The position numbers were made by a program, and so were the translations under genes. Shown here piece after piece: positions 35,932 through 51,945 of a stretch of 64,000 nucleotides of DNA. The notes under the pieces are model-generated. The model did not search any database. It was not told the DNA's origin and worked only from the letters and a program-made list of their open reading frames with translations. The first letter of the stretch is position 1; each line of letters begins with the position of its first letter. Location: NCBI GenBank assembly GCA_017541465.1, contig JAFXYZ010000065.1, positions 1-64,000 of the forward strand, in the 5' to 3' direction. Origin of the DNA: a bacterium (GTDB lineage Bacteria > Cyanobacteriota > Vampirovibrionia > Gastranaerophilales > Gastranaerophilaceae).

Positions 35932-36639
35932 TTATTCTTCGGCTTTAAACAACAAAGAAAGTTCTACACGTCTTGAAGCATCATAGTCCTCAGTTTTATC
36001 CTTGGTCAAAACAGGCTCTGTGAAACTTTTACCTTCAATAATAATCAGTTTGGTTAAATCGTCAGTATATTTTTTATCGTAATTAGTTGTAAACATGTAA
36101 TTAGCAATAGAATTTGCTCTTAATAAACTCAGGTTCATATTTTTAAGGAACTGCTCCTCCTGGGTTTTTGCACCATAGAAGGAATGAGAATCCGTATGAC
36201 CTTCAATGATTATATGATGAAGATTTTTTCTGACCTTATCATTCTTCAAAAGAGTGTTAATATATTCAGGGAAGAATTTATCAAGATATGCTTTTCCGCT
36301 TTCTGAGAGTTCATAGCTGTTAAGATCAAAAAGTTCAACGTTTGAAATTTTTATCTGAGCGGTATTAGCATCAATATCAGCATCAAGCCCCTGAGCCTCA
36401 AGTTCTTTCTTGATTTCTGAGCTGAATTTTCTGGAATAATAAATTCTTTCTTTTTTTGTAAGAGTTTTGAGCTTTTTCTTCAAATGGCTTACCTGCTCTG
36501 TCTTTTCCCCATAGCCGGTAATTGCAAAAACGAAAAGAAGCATGAAAACAATAACCAAACCAAGCATAAGGTCGGTCATCGTTATCCAGAATATATTACT
36601 GTCATCAGAATTTTGAGGTTTTAATTTCTTTATAATCAT
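35932..36639 (-). CDS. ZorB/MotB-like OmpA-domain motor subunit
   Basis: 235 residues. A single membrane helix near the N-terminus contains the ion-channel aspartate, Asp23, in TDLMLGLVIVFMLLFV, which resembles the DLMxGLM segment of ZorB more than flagellar MotB. Residues about 55-85 are charged helices. The C-terminal 130 residues are an OmpA/MotB peptidoglycan-binding domain with EGHTDS, LSLLRANSIANYM and SRRVELSL. With the upstream ZorA/MotA-like gene (nine bases apart) it would form an ion-driven rotary motor anchored to the wall. Such pairs occur in Zorya anti-phage systems, gliding or Tol/Exb transport. No flagellar gene is nearby. Role inferred. Confidence 0.78.
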   Translation of the reverse strand: MIIKKLKPQNSDDSNIFWITMTDLMLGLVIVFMLLFVFAITGYGEKTEQVSHLKKKLKTLTKKERIYYSRKFSSEIKKELEAQGLDADIDANTAQIKISNVELFDLNSYELSESGKAYLDKFFPEYINTLLKNDKVRKNLHHIIIEGHTDSHSFYGAKTQEEQFLKNMNLSLLRANSIANYMFTTNYDKKYTDDLTKLIIIEGKSFTEPVLTKDKTEDYDASRRVELSLLFKAEE

Positions 36640-36648
36640 TATTTTGCC

Positions 36649-37560
36649 TTAGAATAAATCATCAGTCATATCTTTGTCTTCTTTTTCGGTCGCCATTTCT
36701 TTTGAGTATTCCTGTATCTTGTTAAGTCCGAAAACAATGCTTTCGAGGTATGGCATAAGAGAAGTGTTCATTGCTTCATTGACAGTCTTTTTGAACTGTT
36801 CGGGGATACTGTTCAGGGCATAAGCCATATTTGCACTCTGTGTTCTGTTTTGTCTTAAAAGCTCAACGAGGAATTTTTCCGATGAGGTACTGTCAAAAAG
36901 TCTTGTTATGGTGTCTGATAAGATATTTAAAACGTTTTTACATTTTAATTCGTAAGTAATTTTTTCAATAAACATAAATAATATTGAAGAAGAAAGTGCA
37001 GCAACCGAAACCATAGCAGCCATCTGCATAGAGTGCATAATGCCTGAAACTGTATTAATGGTTTCTTCAGAAGATGAAAAGTTTATGTTTGCAAAAGCCG
37101 TAGCGATTGCAAGGAAGGTAAATAAAGGTCCCAAGCCCGTTAAAATTGTCGGAATAATGGTAACCAACTTTGAATTATATTTTGATAAAACCAGATTTTC
37201 TTCATTAAAGAAATACTGGGGATCAATTGTGGTCTGAACGGATAAACTCGGCTGAGACGCTGCTTCAAAGAAATTAGGGTTTGATTCATCTCTTGAAAGC
37301 GAATTTTCAGGGAAGAAAAGGGTACTCTTAAACTCAGACCAGACAACATTTACATAAGGGTTGGAGGAAAGTTTGGTATCAAGCAATTTGAATTTTACCG
37401 TCAGTTCATCTTTTTTTATGGAATTAAAAGTCTCAAGAAGAATTTTGAGGTTCTTATTTACATAATTCATTTTGGTAAAATAATAAGTCAAAAGTGTAAT
37501 AAAAGCGAAGATGACAACGTAGGTTGCAAATTCAGAAATTGTTGTAAGAATGTTAATCAT
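36649..37560 (-). CDS. ZorA/MotA/ExbB-like proton-channel subunit
   Basis: ATG 37560 is preferred over TTG 37602 because GAGG lies nine bases upstream; 303 residues. Helix 1 spans about residues 10-28. The pair of helices after residue 135 carries TIIPTILTGLGPLFTFLAIATAF and the third block VSGIMHSMQMAAMVSVAALSSSILFMFIEKITYELK, matching the MotA/TolQ/ExbB core (PxxxTxLGPLGTFxGL) in which the helices surround the B-subunit plug. The C-terminal 90 residues are cytoplasmic helix and shorter than the long tail typical of Zorya ZorA. It is first in a two-gene operon and divergent from the 1107-residue gene. Confidence 0.75.
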   Translation of the reverse strand: MINILTTISEFATYVVIFAFITLLTYYFTKMNYVNKNLKILLETFNSIKKDELTVKFKLLDTKLSSNPYVNVVWSEFKSTLFFPENSLSRDESNPNFFEAASQPSLSVQTTIDPQYFFNEENLVLSKYNSKLVTIIPTILTGLGPLFTFLAIATAFANINFSSSEETINTVSGIMHSMQMAAMVSVAALSSSILFMFIEKITYELKCKNVLNILSDTITRLFDSTSSEKFLVELLRQNRTQSANMAYALNSIPEQFKKTVNEAMNTSLMPYLESIVFGLNKIQEYSKEMATEKEDKDMTDDLF

Positions 37561-37583
37561 AATTTTTATCCTCTGTTGGTTAA

Positions 37584-37637
37584 ATACTAGCATAAATTTC
37601 AAAATATTGACAATAACTTCATAAATGGATGTATAAT
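37584..37637. promoter_or_regulatory. Divergent promoters sharing overlapping -35 boxes
   Basis: Plus strand: TTGACA (37607-37612), 19 bases, TATAAT (37632-37637), start codon at 37673. Minus strand: TTGTCA (37608-37613), 18 bases, TAGTAT (37584-37589), start at 37560. The -35 boxes overlap by five bases in a near-palindromic TATTGACAATAA, so the two operons compete for or share one polymerase/regulator site. Confidence 0.65.
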
Positions 37638-37672
37638 AAAAAAATAGATAGTTGAAGAGGAAGAAAAATTAC

Positions 37673-40600
37673 ATGCAATGCCCGAGCTGCGGAGCTGAAA
37701 TAACGGAAAAGGATAAGATTTGTCCTAAGTGCAGAAAGGTTTTAAGACTTGAATGCCCGATTTGTTCTACATTAAACACAAGAAAAGTATGTGAAAAATG
37801 CGGGTATGTTATTATCTCAAAGTGCGCAAAGTGTTCAAAAATCAATCCTACAATAAATAAAACCTGCGCTAACTGCGGAACTTCAACCTTTGCAAGTGTG
37901 CTTGTTAACACCTCTAAGCTCGAAGAGTTTGCCGTATTAACCTTTGATTTTGTAAACCTTGATAAAATCAGCTGGTCAATGGGTGATAAAAGGTTTAAAA
38001 AGTTCTATGACAAATTAAAAAGCGCAATAAAAAATATTGTCAAAACAAAAGAATTAACAATAATTAAAGACGGAAGCAACTATGTAATCGGCTTCAATAA
38101 AGATGATTCCTTTTCTGAATCTGTTGAAAATGCAATAAAAGTGTCCTTCAGACTGCTTGCGCTCGTTGCAAAGATTAACTTAAAAATAACAAAATATTCA
38201 AACGAAGTCTTAAAGTGCGCAGCTACAATATCAAAAATGGCAAGCTATTCCGATAACATTGATGTTATTTCGTTCCTGGACTTATATAAAGATGACAAAA
38301 AGAAAATATCGGCACTGACTGATGTTCATCTCTATTTAGAAGCCCAGATTTATTCCGTTCTTCAGGATAAACTTGAATATACTTATATTTCAAGTGTTTA
38401 CAAAAACAAAAAAGAGGTCATGCTCTTTAATATCAATGCTAAAAAATATATAGATATTTATGACGATCCACAGTTAAAAGGGCAGAAGATGGTGGATGGA
38501 AGGTATAATCTTCCCGAATTTAAAGAAGATTTATCCTATCTAAAAGTTATCCAGGACAGAAATGCCTTTAATAAAAACCTCATTAACTTTACTTCAATAA
38601 AATGTAACTGGGAAAAGCTCGACGGGTATCAATTAAAGGAAAAACTCTTCAGCCTTGTTATAGGCGAAAAGAAATTTATACTTTCCTGCTCTGCGCCTTA
38701 TGAATACACCCTTCCGGAAAAAGAAATCATTCAGCTTTTTGAACCTGCAAAGGAAAAAACAATTCAAATAATCACGTGCTCCCAGGATATGAAGGATATT
38801 CCCTACGGCTTTTGGAGAAAGATGCTAGAGAGAATTTATAACCTTTCAAATCTTTCTGAAAAAGAGCTTCAGGATGTGTATAAATACCAAATCGGTTTAG
38901 AGGACAGAAATAATCTGCTCAGATTTGTTATGAACTTTGAGGAACTCAAAAATTCAAATCCTTCCCAGGTCAATGAAGAAATCTCAAAATCGATTTTTAA
39001 CCTCATCAAAAACCAGACGAATAAGGTATTTTATATTAAAAACTTTGAATATATGGATGAAACCTCAAAACTCATCTTTGAGCAGCTGATAAATAACTTT
39101 GATTCTCTTCCACTGAGCTGGGTTGTAGAGCTAAATCATCCTCAAAAACTTCATGATATATTTAAACCGCTGCTTGTAAACCCGAAATATTTTGAAGTTA
39201 CAATGCTTCCTATGCCGTTTAACAAGATTATTCAGCCATATCTTCCTAAGTATGAAGCGGTTACGGACAGTTTCTATATAAACAGAACGGCACTTTGCGC
39301 AAAGGGTTCTCTCTACTTCGTTGATACGGCACTTTCTTACCTTAAAGAAAAAGAGATTTTTGTTGAGGAAAAATCGGGTATTAGGTTAAATTCGCAGGGA
39401 AATCTTATCATTCCGGCAACGCTTGACGACTTAATCAAGAAGAGGATAACGGCGCTAATGGATTATCCTCAGGTGTTTGATATTTTTGCGGTTTCACTCC
39501 TCTTTGATGACTGCATAAATATGAAGTATCTCTCAGAACTCTTCAGCGAATATAAATTTGAACCGTTATTTAAATATCTGACGGATAACGGATATTTATA
39601 CAAGAATGGCACAAACTTCTATATAGCAGGCTATAATCTTTATCTGAAGATGTTTAAAGATTCAATTCCAGAAGAAAAGACAGTTGAAATCGCCCAGCGT
39701 ATGCTGAAATCAACCTATATAAACAAAAATAAAGCTCTCAAAGTAAAACTTCATGAGCTCTGCGGAAACAAAATTGATGCTCTTAATGAAATAACCCAAA
39801 ACATTGATATTAATTCCTCTTTGGGCGATTATTACGCACTTCTTCATTCTATAAGATATTTCTTATATCTGATTAAAAAATATGAAATATCGGATAACGA
39901 TGAAGGTATAAGAGAAAAGAAAGAAGCCATTTTCTCGGAGTTAATCTCTAATGCCCGCCACTTCAATCCTGACAGTATTTCGGATATTATTGCGGTTATT
40001 GCTAATAAACTCAAAAAAGAATCTCAGATTATTGATTTAATCAATGTTTATCTGAATATTTTTGATTCCTGCTTAAATCATCAGAACTATGTAAACGGCT
40101 TCCAGTACCTTCAGAAGATTTTTTCACTTATACAAAACTCTCAGGAGGCGCAGGATAAATTCTCAAATATTCTGCCGATTTTGTCCATATTAAAAATTGA
40201 TTTACTCTTTAATTTAGGCTATTTCAAGAGTGCAATTAATTCGGGTATGGGCACTATCAATGAAATGACGGCTGAATATATCGCAAAAATCAAACACACA
40301 GTCTTTTTGGATAAGCCCTTTGAAGAACTTTTAAATATTCTTATCTGTGATTTAACTCTGATGCTCATTTTAGATCATCAGACAAGTGTTGAGGAATTTT
40401 CGCTTCTCTTAGAAGAAAAACTAAAGAGAAAAATTCCCGCAAAAGAACTTTTTGAAGCACTTGAAAAACTGGTTATGGGAAAGGCTTATACTGTTCAGTA
40501 TAAAGAAATTTATGGCGCAATACCCTTTACTGCAATGCTATATCACATTTTAAATGCCTTCCTTAAAGTTGAGGAGCCTGAAGAATTTGCGAACAGATTA

Positions 40601-40996
40601 TATAGCGCCTCTTTAATCTCATCTCAGACACACAATAACCAGATAGAATACTTCTGCGCGCTTTTAATCGCGTATTCTTATACAAAACTATCAAATAATG
40701 ATAAATCAAGACAGATAATAAAAATTATTCAGGAAAAATCAGCAAAACAAAACCTCTCAACTCTCAGTTATCTCACCTGCTATTTTGACTGCCTGAATGA
40801 AAGCGCAGATGAAGGGAAACTACCTTCCGTTCTTGATACTCTCTCATCTCTTCTTCAGAAAATTGAGAGCGATGATAATGTATGTTTATTCTTAAACGTA
40901 ATGTTTAAAAAGTTAATGGGAACAATGCTTGAGTTATCGGGCAACACTAAACAGGCAGCTTACTACTTTGAAACCGCAAAAGAAATGCTCAAATAA
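37673..40996 (+). CDS. Zinc-ribbon / cyclase-like / TPR multidomain protein
   Basis: ATG 37673 is preferred over TTG 37652; 1107 residues. Residues 1-75 hold three double-CxxC zinc ribbons (CPSCG...CPKC, CPIC...CEKCG, CAKC...CANCG). Residues about 85-210 look like a class III nucleotide-cyclase domain: LTFDFVNLDKIS with a first metal-type Asp and IIKDGSNYVIGF resembling the GDG strand. Residues about 310-700 occupy the place of the STAND/AAA ATPase found in related cyclase-ATPase-TPR regulators, but I find no Walker A (GxxxxGKS). The last 400 residues are TPR-like helices. It leads an operon of three genes, divergent from the ZorAB-like motor. I infer a sensor or scaffold for that motor or for the envelope. 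Domain calls are moderate, function unknown. Confidence 0.65.
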   Translation: MQCPSCGAEITEKDKICPKCRKVLRLECPICSTLNTRKVCEKCGYVIISKCAKCSKINPTINKTCANCGTSTFASVLVNTSKLEEFAVLTFDFVNLDKISWSMGDKRFKKFYDKLKSAIKNIVKTKELTIIKDGSNYVIGFNKDDSFSESVENAIKVSFRLLALVAKINLKITKYSNEVLKCAATISKMASYSDNIDVISFLDLYKDDKKKISALTDVHLYLEAQIYSVLQDKLEYTYISSVYKNKKEVMLFNINAKKYIDIYDDPQLKGQKMVDGRYNLPEFKEDLSYLKVIQDRNAFNKNLINFTSIKCNWEKLDGYQLKEKLFSLVIGEKKFILSCSAPYEYTLPEKEIIQLFEPAKEKTIQIITCSQDMKDIPYGFWRKMLERIYNLSNLSEKELQDVYKYQIGLEDRNNLLRFVMNFEELKNSNPSQVNEEISKSIFNLIKNQTNKVFYIKNFEYMDETSKLIFEQLINNFDSLPLSWVVELNHPQKLHDIFKPLLVNPKYFEVTMLPMPFNKIIQPYLPKYEAVTDSFYINRTALCAKGSLYFVDTALSYLKEKEIFVEEKSGIRLNSQGNLIIPATLDDLIKKRITALMDYPQVFDIFAVSLLFDDCINMKYLSELFSEYKFEPLFKYLTDNGYLYKNGTNFYIAGYNLYLKMFKDSIPEEKTVEIAQRMLKSTYINKNKALKVKLHELCGNKIDALNEITQNIDINSSLGDYYALLHSIRYFLYLIKKYEISDNDEGIREKKEAIFSELISNARHFNPDSISDIIAVIANKLKKESQIIDLINVYLNIFDSCLNHQNYVNGFQYLQKIFSLIQNSQEAQDKFSNILPILSILKIDLLFNLGYFKSAINSGMGTINEMTAEYIAKIKHTVFLDKPFEELLNILICDLTLMLILDHQTSVEEFSLLLEEKLKRKIPAKELFEALEKLVMGKAYTVQYKEIYGAIPFTAMLYHILNAFLKVEEPEEFANRLYSASLISSQTHNNQIEYFCALLIAYSYTKLSNNDKSRQIIKIIQEKSAKQNLSTLSYLTCYFDCLNESADEGKLPSVLDTLSSLLQKIESDDNVCLFLNVMFKKLMGTMLELSGNTKQAAYYFETAKEMLK

Positions 40997-41784
40997 TGAA
41001 AAAATATCTTCTTATTTTAACATTTTTATTACTTTTTCCCTCCGCCTTAGCTGATGCGGAGTTTGAACTTTCCCCCCTTCTGCCTGTCACCGTTAAACAG
41101 GAAAAATCCACTCAGGATAAAATAAACGAACAGGCTAAAGAAATTACGGAAAATGCTACTGAAGTAAAAGAAAATATACAATCAGAATTAAAAGAAACAA
41201 ATAAAAAATTAAAGAAAACAAAAAAGAATAAAAAAGATAAGAAAGCAAAAAAAGAAAAGAAGAAAAAGAAGTCTAAAAAAGATAAACCTGAAGAAGTAAC
41301 CGAACAACAGGAAGAAGTCGTTCAGGCAGAAGAACAAAAACAGGAGGAAGTGATACAGCCTCAGAGAGAAGATACCGAGCATACTGTTGAATATTCAGAG
41401 GACCAGGACTTCAATTTTAAACATGAAATGCTCAAAATCTACGAAAAAAGATATGAAGAGAATAATCTCGACACCGAAAATATATTGAAAATAGCCAAAA
41501 TTCATCTTGATTTAGGACAAAGGGCAATAGCAAAATCATATTATATGCAGTTATATAATACTTACCCGAACAGTCCCAGAATACAGTTTGAGATGGGTAA
41601 ATTTTATTATCAGTGCAAACAATATAACGCAGCTCTCGAGTTTTTTAAACTATCACTTGCTTCAGGATATTTAAGAAACATAGAAGTCAATGAATATACA
41701 CAAAAGACCTATGCAAAACTCGGTGATGAGGAAAATGAAGCACTCTACGGACAGATTATTGAACATTTAAAAGCAGGAGAATAA
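40996..41784 (+). CDS. Secreted Lys-rich coiled-coil / TPR protein
   Basis: 262 residues. Residues 1-19 are a signal peptide (MKKYLLILTFLLLFPSALA). Residues about 40-100 are an extreme lysine-rich stretch (KKNKKDKKAKKEKKKKKSKK), followed by a Q/E-rich linker to about 135. Residues 150-260 form three TPR-like helical repeats, including LDLGQRAIAKSYYMQLYNTYP and FEMGKFYYQCKQYNAALEFFKLSL. The basic region may bind peptidoglycan, LPS phosphates or nucleic acid outside the cytoplasm. Its ATG shares one base with the TAA of the preceding gene, so the two are coupled. Not otherwise recognised. Confidence 0.72.
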   Translation: MKKYLLILTFLLLFPSALADAEFELSPLLPVTVKQEKSTQDKINEQAKEITENATEVKENIQSELKETNKKLKKTKKNKKDKKAKKEKKKKKSKKDKPEEVTEQQEEVVQAEEQKQEEVIQPQREDTEHTVEYSEDQDFNFKHEMLKIYEKRYEENNLDTENILKIAKIHLDLGQRAIAKSYYMQLYNTYPNSPRIQFEMGKFYYQCKQYNAALEFFKLSLASGYLRNIEVNEYTQKTYAKLGDEENEALYGQIIEHLKAGE

Positions 41785-41785
41785 A

Positions 41786-42034
41786 ATGGTACAGCAATTT
41801 CAGGGACAAATGAAGAAAAGACATTCGGTGCTTGTATTTTTAAAAGGCGCAACAGCCCCTTTGGTATTATATTTTGAAAATCCTTTTGCGGTGTATGAAG
41901 AATTAACTCAGGTAGTAAAAAGCCCGATGCCATCCCGAATAATCGAAAAAGAAACCATAGGACCACTCAAAAAGGTTTGCATAAACTCTTCTGAAGTCTG
42001 CGCCGTAGCACTTCAGGAAGAACAGTATATGTAA
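41786..42034 (+). CDS. Small conserved-looking hypothetical protein, 82 residues
   Basis: AGGAGA eight bases before the ATG, one base after the preceding stop, and a strong terminator downstream make this a real third gene of the operon. The product looks like a small alpha/beta domain: KKRHSVLVFLKGATAPLVLYF then a helix, then strands ending KVCINSSEVCAVALQEEQY, which would suit a compact RNA- or ligand-binding fold. No membrane helix or signal peptide. Not recognised. Confidence 0.6.
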   Translation: MVQQFQGQMKKRHSVLVFLKGATAPLVLYFENPFAVYEELTQVVKSPMPSRIIEKETIGPLKKVCINSSEVCAVALQEEQYM

Positions 42035-42063
42035 TAATTTTTAAAAATTTATTATTTTAAAAT

Positions 42064-42098
42064 ATTCAGGGTAAATTTTTACTCTGAATTTTTTTTTA
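42064..42098 (+). terminator. Strong terminator after the three-gene operon
   Basis: ATTCAGGGTAAA pairs with TTTACTCTGAAT (42064-42075 with 42078-42089), one G-T pair, tight loop, followed by ten T. It separates the operon from the EF-hand gene at 42127. Confidence 0.92.
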
Positions 42099-42126: not shown

Positions 42127-44142
42127 ATGCAAATAAACAGTTTATTATCGTTTATAAAGAATCATACTGATTTTGCGGGGAAATTTTCAGAAAAGAAAAT
42201 CTCCGATTCTGTCTTCGCTAAATTTAACGAATACCTGAAAAATGCAGACAAATCAGAGGATAATATAATTTCCTCAGAGGAACTCTCTGAACTTTATGAA
42301 ACAAACGGCGCAGAAATACTTGCAGCCTTTAAACTTCTTGTTCAGGAGCTCGAAAATGTTGACGCAACAGAAGTTACGAACGATTTATTCAATATTTCAA
42401 AAGATTTAATCGAAGGAAATGATGAGATAAACGAAGATATTTCAGCTCTTGAAGATATATCTCTTGATGATTTTATCGAAAATTCAGAAAAAACTGATTT
42501 TGAAGATGAAACACTCTCAAAATTCTGGGGCGCGATAAAAGAAAATGACGCTAAAGAAATTTTTGAAAAACTCGATGAAAATAAAGATGGGAAACTTTCA
42601 AAGGAGGAATTAAACAAGTTCTCTGAAATTGACGGCGAGAAAGATAATATTTCATTAACCGATTTAAGTCAGTTTATTAACCCTGAAACACTCTTGGAAG
42701 ATGAATCAGAGACCTTAGAAAATACAGAAGAGCCTTCAGTTGGAACAGAAGAAACTGATGAGCCGACATCAACAAAACCGGACGAAGACACAACAACACA
42801 AGAGACAAATAAACCTAAAGAAACATCAAAACCTTCATCAACTCCATCTTCAACGGGCGGAAGCTATAATTCGGGCTCCCCGACAAATGACGGAGGCAAC
42901 GTTGTTCCGACAGTACCCGAGAATGATGAAAGAACGGTTGAACAGATAAATTCGGAAATTAAAGAACAGGAAAGTTCAAGAAACGAAATCAAGTCTAAAT
43001 CAGAAAAAGATATAGCAGAGAATGAAGGGAAAATATCTGAAGCTGTATCAAAAAGCGATTTGAGCGAAGAATTTAAAGAGGAATATGAAAACGAAACAAA
43101 ACGTCTGGATGAAGAAATTTCAAATAAAGACAAAGAAATAGATGAGCAAACGGTAATATATCAGGATGCTCTGGCGAAGGCTGACACTTTAAAGAGCGCA
43201 GCAGGAGAAATTTCATCTCAAATAACAGAGCTTGAAGGAAAAATGAACAATCTTGGTGAAGATTCAGGTTTAAAAGAAAAATATCAGACAAGTATTCAGA
43301 ATTTAACAACGGAAAAGGAAAAACTTGAAGAAGAAGAACGTGCTGAAAGAGATAAAGCAGATAGTGCAAAAGAGCAAATTGACGCTTTAAAAAAAGATAA
43401 ATCGGATTTAGAAAAAGAAAAAGATAATCTTCTCGATACTCTGAGCGAAAAATTCAGCTCAGAAAAAGAGAAGGTTGAAAAAATCAAAGAAGATATAAAA
43501 GAATATCAGGAAAATATAAAAACTATCCGTGAGAATCTGGAAAAAGATTTAGAAACGGTTGACGGAAACATTCAGAAACTCAAAAACGAAAAGGCGCAAC
43601 TGGAGCAGGCACCAAAGACCAAAGAAATAATTAATTCCAACAGACCTGTTGACAGAACACCGACATCATTAAATGAAAATATACAAAACGTAAACTGGGA
43701 AGACTACGGATATAATCCTGAAACAGGCAAAAAGTTTGCCGACAGTGCGGTAAATGTTGAAAGCAGATTAAGAGCAAAAGGGAAACAAATTGACCATAAC
43801 TGTTTGGGCGGTGTTAAAGATACCTTTATTGACGTAACAGGAGAAAGCCCCTTCGGACTTCCCGAACAGGGAATAACTGTAGCATCACAATGCCTTGATA
43901 CAATGAGAAATAATGAAAACTACCGAGAAATAACAGGAATTAGTGCAGGGGAACTCGGTTATCTGCCTGCAGGCGCAGTTGTTGTCTGGAGCAGCTCATC
44001 AGGAGGTTCAAGCCCTGCAGACTTATACGGACATATTTCTGTATCACTCGGTGACGGAAGAGAATCGAGCTCAAAAATTCGCCAACAGTTAACCTCTGTC
44101 GGACAAAACGGAAAACCGACCGTATTTATTCCGATAACTTAA
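42127..44142 (+). CDS. EF-hand / coiled-coil / CHAP-like amidase protein (second copy)
   Basis: 671 residues. Residues 1-200 are acidic and contain EF-hand loops (DKSEDNIISSEE and DENKDGKLSKEE) and the same D/G-x-x-I-S-L-x-D second half as the proteins at 6216 and 19774. Residues 200-270 are a T/P/S-rich linker and 270-520 a long coiled coil. The C-terminal 140 residues are CHAP-like: Cys559 in DHNCLGGVK and His636 in YGHISVSLGDG, with the AGAVVVW strand just before it. This is the plan of peptidoglycan amidases or endopeptidases. The weak ribosome-binding site (GGG 14 bases away) leaves the start slightly uncertain. No Sec signal. Confidence 0.68.
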   Translation: MQINSLLSFIKNHTDFAGKFSEKKISDSVFAKFNEYLKNADKSEDNIISSEELSELYETNGAEILAAFKLLVQELENVDATEVTNDLFNISKDLIEGNDEINEDISALEDISLDDFIENSEKTDFEDETLSKFWGAIKENDAKEIFEKLDENKDGKLSKEELNKFSEIDGEKDNISLTDLSQFINPETLLEDESETLENTEEPSVGTEETDEPTSTKPDEDTTTQETNKPKETSKPSSTPSSTGGSYNSGSPTNDGGNVVPTVPENDERTVEQINSEIKEQESSRNEIKSKSEKDIAENEGKISEAVSKSDLSEEFKEEYENETKRLDEEISNKDKEIDEQTVIYQDALAKADTLKSAAGEISSQITELEGKMNNLGEDSGLKEKYQTSIQNLTTEKEKLEEEERAERDKADSAKEQIDALKKDKSDLEKEKDNLLDTLSEKFSSEKEKVEKIKEDIKEYQENIKTIRENLEKDLETVDGNIQKLKNEKAQLEQAPKTKEIINSNRPVDRTPTSLNENIQNVNWEDYGYNPETGKKFADSAVNVESRLRAKGKQIDHNCLGGVKDTFIDVTGESPFGLPEQGITVASQCLDTMRNNENYREITGISAGELGYLPAGAVVVWSSSSGGSSPADLYGHISVSLGDGRESSSKIRQQLTSVGQNGKPTVFIPIT

Positions 44143-48235: not shown

Positions 48236-50224
48236 TTGAAAAAGATATTCTTTATTTTGGTTTTAGGGTTAATAATCACAGCCAACAGCGCAAATGCAGC
48301 AGAGTTTATGACAGACTTGGCAGCACCTGTTTCTGACTTAAATTTACTCAATAATGCGGAATTATCCGATGAAGATTTGGATAAATTTCCACAGGAGGAG
48401 GAAGAGAACAAATTCTCGCTCTTTAAGACAAAAAAGAGAATGAAGCCTCAGGATGAGACAATTTCCTCTATTGATGCAAACATTTCTGTCGGCGACACAC
48501 CGAAGGAAGAGAAAAAGACAGTAAAAGAAAGACTTTCAGGTTTGAATTTGCCGAAAGTTAATCTGCCTTTACTGAACAAGAAGAAGGAAGAAGCAGTTAC
48601 AAAAAAATCAGACAATAACGAAGTTTCAGACGTACAGATAGAAGCTGATTTTCTTGAATATTATCCTGAAAAGTCGGAGATTGAAGCGATAGGAAATGCA
48701 AAAATCTACCTTCCAAGCCAGGATGTAACCCTTTACGCAAATAAAATTGTTTTTAATCACGATTTAAATACAGTAGTGGCAAAAGATAACGTAAAGCTCG
48801 TTAATCAGGATTCTGAGACAACCGGTGACTTTATAAATCTGAATTTAAGCAGTGATGAAGGTATCATCGAAAACCCGATTACAAACACCTATGAAATAAG
48901 CATTAAAGCGAAAGAGGGAAGAGTTTACTCTGACAGAATTGAAGAATATGATGGTGTTGCAAAGATTTTAAAGAATTACGATTTAAAATTTGCTGCCCGC
49001 TCATTTGCAAGTTATGTTAACCCGGGAAGATTAGACCTTCACGAAGAAACTATGAAGGCTAGCGACTCAGGAATATATCATCTCAAAACCCAGGAAATTA
49101 AGATAAATTCCGAAGAGGAACACAATATAATCACTATGAAAAACACCGGTGTTTATGCAAAGAAAATCAAAATCGGTGTAGTTCCCCAGATACAGGTAGT
49201 ATCAGGGAAACAGTCCTCTACTTTTGAAACAAATATCCCTGAATTCGGAAGCGCCTCAAACATAGGACTTTATGCAGGACCTGCAATCGTTTTAAATATG
49301 CCAAAGTCCTCAACTTTAAAAGTTGCGCCTCTGTTGACATATTCAGATAATAAACTCGGATTTGGCGGTTTTGCAAGATTCCTGCACGATAAAAACAGAA
49401 CAGAAATTATGTATGGCTCAAGTGAAGATAAATTCCTCATCAACGGTCAGCAAATGCTCACAGACAGACTATCTCTCAGATATTCACAAAACACCTACCA
49501 GGATGAGTGGTTTTTGGGCTTCAGAAGACCAAGATATTCAGCTGATTTGCAATATAACAGAGCAGATTTTGTTGAAGATTTGGGCTTAACCTTCACCCAG
49601 AGATATTCGGCAGGATACTTTGTTGATGAAGATGACCAGATAGGTCAGGGCGAAATGAGAATGAGATGGATGACACAAGGTCAGAAATCCTTCTATCGCT
49701 ATCAGAACAGAGATAAAAATGTTCTTGTTGATGCAGGTTTAATTTCGCAAACTGCCGCAACTGTTTACTCAAAAGGTGACGTAACAGGGTTATTCAGATT
49801 TGGTCCTATTTTAACTACAAGATTAGGTCCGTGGAAGCAATCTTTAATTTACTTCCAGTCCGCAACAGCAGGGGAATCGCCCTTCGCCTTTGACAAATAT
49901 GCTTACGGTAAATCAAACTTTGTCTTTGTTGAAGAGCTGAAAATATGCAAATACTTAACTATAGGCTACTTAGGTTCTATAGCACTTTTAAGAGACTCTT
50001 CGTTTGACGATAATATGTGGCAGGAAAACAAAATTCTTCTCAGTGTAGGACCTGACTATGCTAAATTCACCTTAGGATATGACGTTAACAGGCAAAGCAC
50101 AATGCTTACTTTATCAATGCTTGTAGGCGCTAAAGATTCCGAAATTGAATTTAAGAAAGCTACTTATAAAACAAACGATAAGGAAGAGAAAAAAGGCTTC
50201 ATTAACAGACTGGTAAATATTTAA
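48236..50224 (+). CDS. LptD-like outer-membrane protein with OstA/LptA domain
   Basis: TTG start with AAGG eight bases upstream; 662 residues. Residues 1-21 are a signal peptide (ends ANSANAAEF). After a charged linker, residues about 130-280 show the OstA/LptA beta-jellyroll (VQIEADFLEYYPEKSEIEAIGNAKIYLP, NKIVFNHDLNTVVAKDNVKL). The second half is a beta-barrel of alternating strands, with aromatic girdles such as FLGFRRPRYSADLQYNRADF and ending in SMLVGAKDSEIEFKKATY. This is the LptD plan: transfer of LPS from the periplasmic bridge to the outer leaflet. Cysteine pairs used in E. coli LptD are not evident. It overlaps the convergent PLD gene by four bases. Confidence 0.78.
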   Translation: MKKIFFILVLGLIITANSANAAEFMTDLAAPVSDLNLLNNAELSDEDLDKFPQEEEENKFSLFKTKKRMKPQDETISSIDANISVGDTPKEEKKTVKERLSGLNLPKVNLPLLNKKKEEAVTKKSDNNEVSDVQIEADFLEYYPEKSEIEAIGNAKIYLPSQDVTLYANKIVFNHDLNTVVAKDNVKLVNQDSETTGDFINLNLSSDEGIIENPITNTYEISIKAKEGRVYSDRIEEYDGVAKILKNYDLKFAARSFASYVNPGRLDLHEETMKASDSGIYHLKTQEIKINSEEEHNIITMKNTGVYAKKIKIGVVPQIQVVSGKQSSTFETNIPEFGSASNIGLYAGPAIVLNMPKSSTLKVAPLLTYSDNKLGFGGFARFLHDKNRTEIMYGSSEDKFLINGQQMLTDRLSLRYSQNTYQDEWFLGFRRPRYSADLQYNRADFVEDLGLTFTQRYSAGYFVDEDDQIGQGEMRMRWMTQGQKSFYRYQNRDKNVLVDAGLISQTAATVYSKGDVTGLFRFGPILTTRLGPWKQSLIYFQSATAGESPFAFDKYAYGKSNFVFVEELKICKYLTIGYLGSIALLRDSSFDDNMWQENKILLSVGPDYAKFTLGYDVNRQSTMLTLSMLVGAKDSEIEFKKATYKTNDKEEKKGFINRLVNI

Positions 50225-51945
50225 CGTGAACTGCGGCAGCCCTCGTCCTGACCATCGGTTTTGCCGTCAAAGTCGTTATCGACACCGTCAAAACAGGAAT
50301 AGACGGACTGAGGCGATTCTGCGGGAGGATCACTGTTTAAATATTTATCATCTATCTGAGCCCAGGTTTTATTGAAGCTCTCAGTCATTTCCTGAGCAAT
50401 TTTTGTGTTTTTAATTATTAAAACATTTTCATCGTTTGCTTTTTCACCGCTTGAGGTAAAATTCATCGAGCCGATAAGAGTAATTTCATTATCAAATATA
50501 ATTATTTTGGAATGATTTTTACCTGCAAAGTTTTCCGTCTTAACACTTATTCCTTCCCCTCTCAGCTCTTTATGAACAGAAAATTTGTTTGAAGCATTAG
50601 TCGCATCATTGATAATTCTGATTTTAACCCCGCGCTTTGAAGCTTCAATAAGTGCTTCCTTCAGATTTTTATGGGTAAGATAGAAGATAGAGATGTCAAT
50701 GGTTGATTTTGCGCTGTTTATAAGCGGAATAATTTCATTTATGATAATTTTATCTTTAGGTGAAAAGAAAACGGAAACTTCAGTATCACCATTTAAAAGA
50801 ACGGGGGATTTTTCAATCTTTTCTTTATCACTATGAAATTTACCTTCATACATCTGATTAAATTCTTTTGTATAATATTCTGCTATTTTATCAGAATTAA
50901 TCAAAACAGAATAATTAGCATTAAACCCCGTTAAATCAGTCTGAGTGATATTACTTGAACCCGTAAACACTTTTTTGCCGTCAAAGATAAAGAATTTATT
51001 GTGCATAATCTTATTCGCCTGGGCTTTATTATCACTGTAATCGTAGCGATAATCGCTGAGAATATCGGCAAGTCTTTTGGTATCGGGATAGTATTCGGTC
51101 GGTGAAGTGGAATAATCGCTCACCCATTTAATTTTGACACCTCTTTTATGTGCATTTATGAGCGCGTTAAAGATAGCATCCTGGTTATGCAGTCCATAGA
51201 CGGCAAAGAGAATTTCGTTCTGCGCTGAATTTATTTCTTTTAATAAGACTTTGCACGCTGAAGTCTGGCAGGAGTTTTGCGGTGTTTTAACCTCATTTAA
51301 GCCCAGGGGAAATATTTGTATGTCACCTACATCTATTAATTTTTGACTTTCAACTTTAATATCGGGAGATACTTCCTCTGGGTTAAGATAAACATTAATA
51401 CAGCTTTTGCAGGGAATATAATCTGAAGGAACAAATTTGACAGGGATAAGTTTATACAATTTGCTCTTTATTCCAGTATCACAATTTAGTTTATGATAGC
51501 GTTTACTTTTTATGTTTAAAATAACGTAATCTTTAGCCTTTTCCTCTTCAAGTTTTTTCTTAAAACCTTCTTCATCTTTTGAGTTTGAATTTAAAACAAG
51601 ATGTGAAGAGGTCATATGCTGAAGAAAATCAGAATCATTTAACTGAATAGTTTTTGTCTCAGGCTCATAGGTAACATATTTATGCAATAAAAAATGCTGA
51701 GCCTCCCTTAGAGCAAGATACTCAAGAAGAAATCTGTCCTCAGAAGAAAGAGTGTCCGGGATATAGAGTTCATCAAAGGTAATTGCTTCATCAGAATCCG
51801 GCTGAAAATTATGGTTAAGGTCGAGCACTACCGTTTTATAGTCAGGAACATCAAGGACTTTATACTTGCCGAAGTTTATGAAAAATACAAGAATAAAGAG
51901 AAAAATTAATATAAATACAAAGAGTAATTTCAGATATTTAAACAT
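50221..51945 (-). CDS. Membrane-anchored phospholipase D-like protein with Ca-binding tail
   Basis: 574 residues. One N-terminal membrane helix (about 7-24). Residues 140-195 contain YHKLNCD...IPCKSC, an Ada-like metal-binding Cys/His motif. Two PLD domains follow, with HKD motifs HNKFFIFDGKKVFTGSSN (His315) and HSKIIIFDNEITLIGSMN (His478), so the enzyme has the usual dual active site. The last 30 residues, CFDGVDNDFDGKTDGQDEGC, are a DGxDND/MopE-type calcium-binding repeat bounded by cysteines. It may hydrolyse phosphodiesters in lipids or nucleic acid; nuclease of the Nuc type is possible. Six bases downstream of the AsmA-like stop, without a clear Shine-Dalgarno, so likely co-translated. 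Confidence 0.85.
   Translation of the reverse strand: MFKYLKLLFVFILIFLFILVFFINFGKYKVLDVPDYKTVVLDLNHNFQPDSDEAITFDELYIPDTLSSEDRFLLEYLALREAQHFLLHKYVTYEPETKTIQLNDSDFLQHMTSSHLVLNSNSKDEEGFKKKLEEEKAKDYVILNIKSKRYHKLNCDTGIKSKLYKLIPVKFVPSDYIPCKSCINVYLNPEEVSPDIKVESQKLIDVGDIQIFPLGLNEVKTPQNSCQTSACKVLLKEINSAQNEILFAVYGLHNQDAIFNALINAHKRGVKIKWVSDYSTSPTEYYPDTKRLADILSDYRYDYSDNKAQANKIMHNKFFIFDGKKVFTGSSNITQTDLTGFNANYSVLINSDKIAEYYTKEFNQMYEGKFHSDKEKIEKSPVLLNGDTEVSVFFSPKDKIIINEIIPLINSAKSTIDISIFYLTHKNLKEALIEASKRGVKIRIINDATNASNKFSVHKELRGEGISVKTENFAGKNHSKIIIFDNEITLIGSMNFTSSGEKANDENVLIIKNTKIAQEMTESFNKTWAQIDDKYLNSDPPAESPQSVYSCFDGVDNDFDGKTDGQDEGCRSSR

Follow-up and report, generated by a model that had tools for sequence, protein, structure and literature searches.

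A tail-less ZorAB-type motor kept together with a zinc-ribbon/TPR protein in the Gastranaerophilaceae suggests an undescribed motor machine

The stretch of DNA analyzed here (the window) covers the first 64,000 nucleotides of contig JAFXYZ010000065.1, from a Gastranaerophilaceae genome of 2.1 Mb that is 99.7% complete. As originally predicted from the sequence, two motor genes (B and A) and a divergent run of three genes (C, D, and E) were found as open frames, with nuo and glgP genes on the flanks (Table 1). The likely start of A is the ATG at 37560, which has AGAGGA upstream and gives a protein of 303 aa, as in relatives. For C, a start at residue 8 of the open frame, where relatives align, agrees with the size first proposed. 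The start of D overlaps the stop of C. Many of the relatives found through C are titled Candidatus Gastranaerophilales or Melainabacteria.

Table 1. Coordinates of the genes and signals of the locus within the window.
Feature	Coordinates	Strand	Description
B	35932..36639	-	235 aa, ZorB/MotB type; open frame confirmed
A	36649..37602	-	ZorA/MotA type; ORF opens at TTG 37602
C	37673..40996	+	1107 aa; ORF from 37652
D	40996..41784	+	262 aa, Lys-rich TPR protein with a signal-like N-terminus
E	41786..42034	+	82 aa; no Pfam match
Bidirectional promoter-like region	37584..37637	both	consensus matches only
Terminator-like hairpin and T run	42064..42097	+	after E; 0.2 expected by shuffles

The overlapping -35 boxes of the original prediction were recovered, and at the place of its terminator there is a terminator-like hairpin with a T run. 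On the forward strand, TTGACA (37607-37612) and TATAAT (37632-37637) can be read from the sequence, and on the reverse strand TTGTCA (37613-37608) and TAGTAT (37589-37584), the two -35 boxes sharing bases; consensus matches of this sort are not rare in AT-rich DNA. The forward spacer is 19, and hence the promoter scan lists the reverse-strand site only. Genus g15 has back-to-back TATAAT boxes in the same gap between A and C. The gene directly after the block (42127-44142) encodes 671 aa; the protein has an EF hand, its middle part resembles a long coiled coil, and its C-terminal part looks CHAP-type by eye only.

The two motor subunits resemble ZorA and ZorB, as had been proposed. B matched the PADLOC ZorB1 profile (1.8e-52) and has a single transmembrane helix with TDLMLGLVIVFMLL, in which D23 is invariant, as well as a peptidoglycan-binding OmpA-type domain (PF00691, 2.2e-09) with GHTDS, NxxLSxxRA, and SRRVE motifs, the residues of which are also invariant. 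A matched the ZorA1 profile (1.1e-21), only over its first 260-300 residues, and the ZorA structures by sequence comparison (2.5e-13), while no match to Pfam MotA_ExbB was obtained for A. The predicted model of A is moderately confident (mean pLDDT 71.5) and its best fold match is ZorA (4e-10). Residues T162 and S199 of A (ORF numbering) are invariant among relatives and correspond, by alignment offset, to T147 and S184 of ZorA, which we take to be part of the ion ring. Such a role is consistent with the work on Zorya (PMC11890865), where the ion ring is important for function, as are the transmembrane Asp and the residues that bind peptidoglycan. Overall, the Zorya I ZorAB structures (PDB 8QYD, 8VVN) are the best sequence and fold matches and are like A and B in subunit folds, ion-path residues, and a peptidoglycan-binding B subunit. 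Two features of Zorya I are thus found here, namely the ZorB-type transmembrane Asp with an OmpA/peptidoglycan domain in B and the ZorA membrane core with a Thr/Ser ion ring in A. Of the ZorA calcium-site residues E86 and E89, only E86 has an acidic counterpart in A (E90) by sequence alignment. A and B also belong to the superfamily of the ExbBD, TolQR, and MotAB 5:2 motors (PMC9389320, PMC12505986) and presumably work by the same mechanism, although the fold matches of A to ExbB and TolQ are far weaker than those to ZorA. Every family genome in our survey of the class has, in addition, a separate canonical MotA_ExbB protein.

Unlike in Zorya I, A measures only ~300 aa in all members; it is without the long cytoplasmic tail of ZorA and stops near ZorA residue 290. 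A search of 386 genomes of the phylum found A in 136 genomes of the family, with one remote match outside, and the frames measured 298-349 aa in all 136 family members matched, bar one cut by a contig end. In Zorya I the long tail is needed, as deletion of ZorA residues 237-696 abolishes defence (PMC11890865). The motor also differs from Zorya I in having no ZorC or ZorD beside it, with C as the partner instead, and in its apparently vertical inheritance. Indeed, the predicted absence of ZorC, ZorD, and ZorE held among the neighbours searched with the PADLOC library, which does detect ZorC and ZorD in two true Zorya I loci (L272 and L275). Other families of the class carry ordinary Zorya I, with a ZorA of 615-733 aa and, where tested, ZorC and ZorD. 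Two large genomes of another family of the class (L270, 4282-10085; L271, 5222-13203) encode a long-tailed ZorA and ZorB, then two small proteins and matches to the PADLOC STK_OB kinase in place of ZorC and ZorD, possibly a kinase-linked Zorya variant.

In place of the tail, the A proteins of the family have a conserved C-terminal motif, D-x-[IVL]-D-x-[LIV]-F, which reads DMTDDLF in the window. Of 62 distinct A proteins, 58 contained the pattern [DN]x[ILVMT][DNTG]x[LIV]F within their final 20 residues, against 1 of 1399 other ORFs longer than 200 aa, a contrast that shows conservation and is not an independent test, since the pattern was drawn from the same A sequences. Both A proteins of genus g82, from genomes without C, have an altered motif (KDAESQLFE); g82 being one lineage, this change is only suggestive. 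Between two and seven extra residues come after the motif in g14, g86, g90, g93, and one g20 sequence, and a g22 genome that does have C encodes an A protein in which one of the acidic positions is likewise missing. The motif thus need not be complete or stand at a free C-terminus. The presence of canonical Zorya I (ZorA 615-733 aa) elsewhere in the class could suggest that the motor is a decaying remnant that has shed its tail, ZorC, and ZorD. We consider this highly improbable, as A and B are intact in more than 130 genomes, their functional residues are invariant, and A has a conserved C-terminal motif of its own, all of which indicates purifying selection rather than decay.

To describe the distribution of the motor and C, we used an even sample of 97 family genomes from 41 genera, with strong matches defined as at least 228 bits for B and at least 974 bits for C. 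Strong matches to B and C were found in 69 and 68 genomes, respectively: 66 genomes had both, three the motor only, two C only, and 26 neither (Fisher p 5e-18, a statistic that ignores relatedness). The motor-only genomes are two from g82 and one that is 57% complete; in one of the two C-only genomes, B lies immediately next to C but is truncated by the end of the contig. The predicted link between the motor and the divergent zinc-ribbon/cyclase-like/TPR protein therefore extends beyond the window genome: of the 71 genomes with at least one of the two, 66 contain both, although g82 keeps a motor without C. An rpoB tree of 80 genomes places the joint absences in g17, g21, g85/g92, and a clade of 13 genomes. 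Genus g21, without motor or C, is the sister group (97%) of the window genome. The tree of A and B groups the window copy with g82, g93, and g14 (83/93), within the same larger clade as rpoB. Given this agreement, the absences look like losses, at least four of them joint; a transfer inside that larger clade may also have occurred. The window copy has a long branch in both gene trees, so its placement is not firm. The motor is present in one copy per genome.

Gene order provided a second view of the unit. A and C are head to head in nine genera (g1, g15, g20, g80, g83, g84, g88, g89, and g90) and in 13 loci of a named genome collection; in one of these loci, the two genes are about 2.2 kb apart. 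In about 19 genera, A-B is not adjacent to C, which there lies mostly upstream of glgA. C is immediately upstream of or overlaps glgA in many genera (L061, L068, L074, L076, L078, L080, and L260-L269). In g92, g85, and g21, which have neither the motor nor C, nuoA is directly divergent from a homologue of D (L252, L253, L279, and L281), and in the window the interval between nuoA and D is exactly where B-A-C lies. D was thus already a neighbour, and B-A-C came, moved, or was lost as one block; the intergenic DNA is too diverged to define the junction bases. E is a near-universal core protein, present in 95 of the 97 genomes and mostly elsewhere than at the motor. It adjoins A in g82, where it lies just upstream of A-B, and as a motor partner it was kept at low weight. 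Hence, we judged the unit to be three genes (B, A, and C), with D and E as neighbours. Neither the five-gene block nor the three-gene operon of the original prediction was retained as a unit: in none of the relatives examined do D and E adjoin the motor and C, and both genes occur without the motor and have histories of their own. The five-gene block thus fails under the refuting condition set with the original prediction. A DUF711 gene after B was also rejected as a part, as only some genera have it there.

We then compared evolutionary rates. For A, B, C, and glgA, we fitted branch lengths on the rpoB topology, regressed them on those of rpoB, and compared the residuals by Spearman correlation. 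For 15 genomes, rho was 0.95 for A-C, 0.88 for A-B, and 0.84 for B-C, against 0.62, 0.59, and 0.58 for the glgA controls with A, B, and C, respectively; for 24 genomes, it was 0.92 (A-C), 0.82 (A-B), and 0.81 (B-C). The rate of C tracks that of A no less closely than the rate of B does, and it tracks A far more closely than it tracks glgA, the operon neighbour of C, in a comparison of 15-24 genomes with a single control gene in which a constraint shared by envelope genes could raise covariation without contact. These data bear on an alternative in which the motor and C act separately, A and B as a generic envelope motor (e.g., Tol/Pal-like or surface-motility-like) and C as a glgA-linked regulator of glycogen synthesis, their co-occurrence reflecting shared ancestry. 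The position of C directly before glgA, the unlinked genes of some 19 genera, and the C-less motor of g82 would all fit. However, glgA is present in all 97 genomes, C-less ones included, so it is not lost with C and was also rejected as a third partner; C follows the rates of A far better than those of glgA, is missing where the motor is missing, and is divergent from A in nine genera; and in the window genome the three genes form a single block at a place where related genera lack all of them. On balance, we regard separate action as unlikely.

The sequence and predicted structure of C suggest zinc ribbons followed by a degenerate class III cyclase domain, a STAND-like domain without P-loop, and a TPR superhelix. 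C has three zinc ribbons, the 12 Cys of which are invariant in 49 of 49 C sequences. Its AF2 model (pLDDT 83.8) comprises a cyclase-like domain (~88-262), an NTPase-like region with a winged helix (~318-660), and TPR-like helical repeats (~660-1114). The best Foldseek match was 6MFV, a STAND protein with TPR (E 9.9e-10, probability 1.00), with a whole-chain TM-score to the target of only 0.32; Avs3 (8DGC, 1.5e-7) and adenylyl cyclases (~1e-4) also matched, with low whole-chain TM-scores. Residues ~88-262 probably have the class III adenylyl cyclase fold (e.g., 4P2F, 3R5G), with a TM-score to the target of 0.6-0.7 for the model, although the catalytic metal-binding Asp is not conserved, position 99 being D in 23 of 49 sequences and E, K, T, or N in the others. 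The model also suggests that C shares an NTPase-like and TPR layout with STAND NTPases carrying a TPR sensor (6MFV) and with Avs3. Unlike these proteins, C carries zinc ribbons and a cyclase-like domain ahead of this layout and lacks a P-loop: no GK[ST] was found at the expected strand-helix turn in the 49 sequences, in which the Walker B-like strand is mostly hhhEN. No nuclease or other effector domain was recognized in C and it had no PADLOC match. The missing P-loop and the variable cyclase metal position suggest that C is probably a scaffold or sensor and not an enzyme. Nearly every family genome encodes further large proteins (~985-1300 aa) that start with zinc ribbons (e.g., G000:C9:25658-25885); these are likely paralogues of C and are present even where the motor and C are absent.

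The original prediction left a choice between a new motor-linked envelope system and a defence system, and proposed a search for the block within defence islands. A variant anti-phage system, in which the motor would sense envelope perturbation at infection and C would be an Avs-like STAND/TPR recognizer or effector with zinc ribbons, would account for the ZorAB family of the motor, the resemblance of the C model to a STAND-TPR protein and to the phage-sensing Avs3, and the patchy presence across genera. Nevertheless, the motor is a single-copy and apparently vertical gene pair (its tree agrees with rpoB for g82, g93, and g14), A lacks the tail on which Zorya I depends (PMC11890865), and C has no PADLOC match, P-loop, or recognized nuclease or effector domain. 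The flanks are nuo and glgP genes and no defence set was found in the neighbours checked, so that the defence island was dropped; the DrmC matches at 50221-51945 correspond to a generic phospholipase D domain. An anti-phage role is in our view quite improbable. Vertical inheritance, one copy per genome, housekeeping neighbours, and the lack of a tail and of a recognized effector favour the envelope half of the original proposal over the defence half, and an inherited gene set is more in keeping with a role in envelope sensing or mechanics than with protection against phages.

Taken together, a tail-less ZorAB-type motor that belongs to the inherited core of many of these gut bacteria and is kept, lost, and changed together with C suggests an undescribed motor machine. 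We lean toward A, B, and C being one machine, a ZorAB-type motor with a ring that would act on C or by way of it. By homology to 8QYD and 8VVN, A and B would form a 5:2 ion-driven motor in the inner membrane, and the OmpA domains of B, with their invariant residues, would clamp it to peptidoglycan. Ion flow past D23 of B and the Thr/Ser ring of A would rotate the A pentamer. The short acidic-hydrophobic peptide at the end of A may stand in place of the Zorya tail. C could be a cytoplasmic scaffold derived from a cyclase/STAND/TPR receptor that lost its P-loop; it would dock on the A ring, possibly with its TPR part holding the A tail peptides, and would pass the state of the envelope or ion gradient, or torque, to a cytoplasmic process. 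Our best reading is that this machine serves an inherited envelope or cell-physiology function of the family and is not a mobile defence system. More tentatively, and with rather less assurance than for the machine itself, we propose that a ZorAB-type motor inherited throughout the family plays no role in defence and that C, without catalytic activity, is docked on its rotating ring through the short A tail. Such a motor would be either a defence-type motor put to new use or the housekeeping source from which Zorya arose.

In the literature examined here, no paper named both these bacteria and Zorya or anti-phage systems, and, as far as that literature shows, ZorAB motors are known only from phage defence. 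If a related motor is inherited and acts with another cytoplasmic partner, this class of motor would have a cellular job, and the tail-less A offers a natural comparison for how Zorya transmits its signal. The motor of this family also lets one ask directly whether Zorya derives from a housekeeping motor or gave rise to one.
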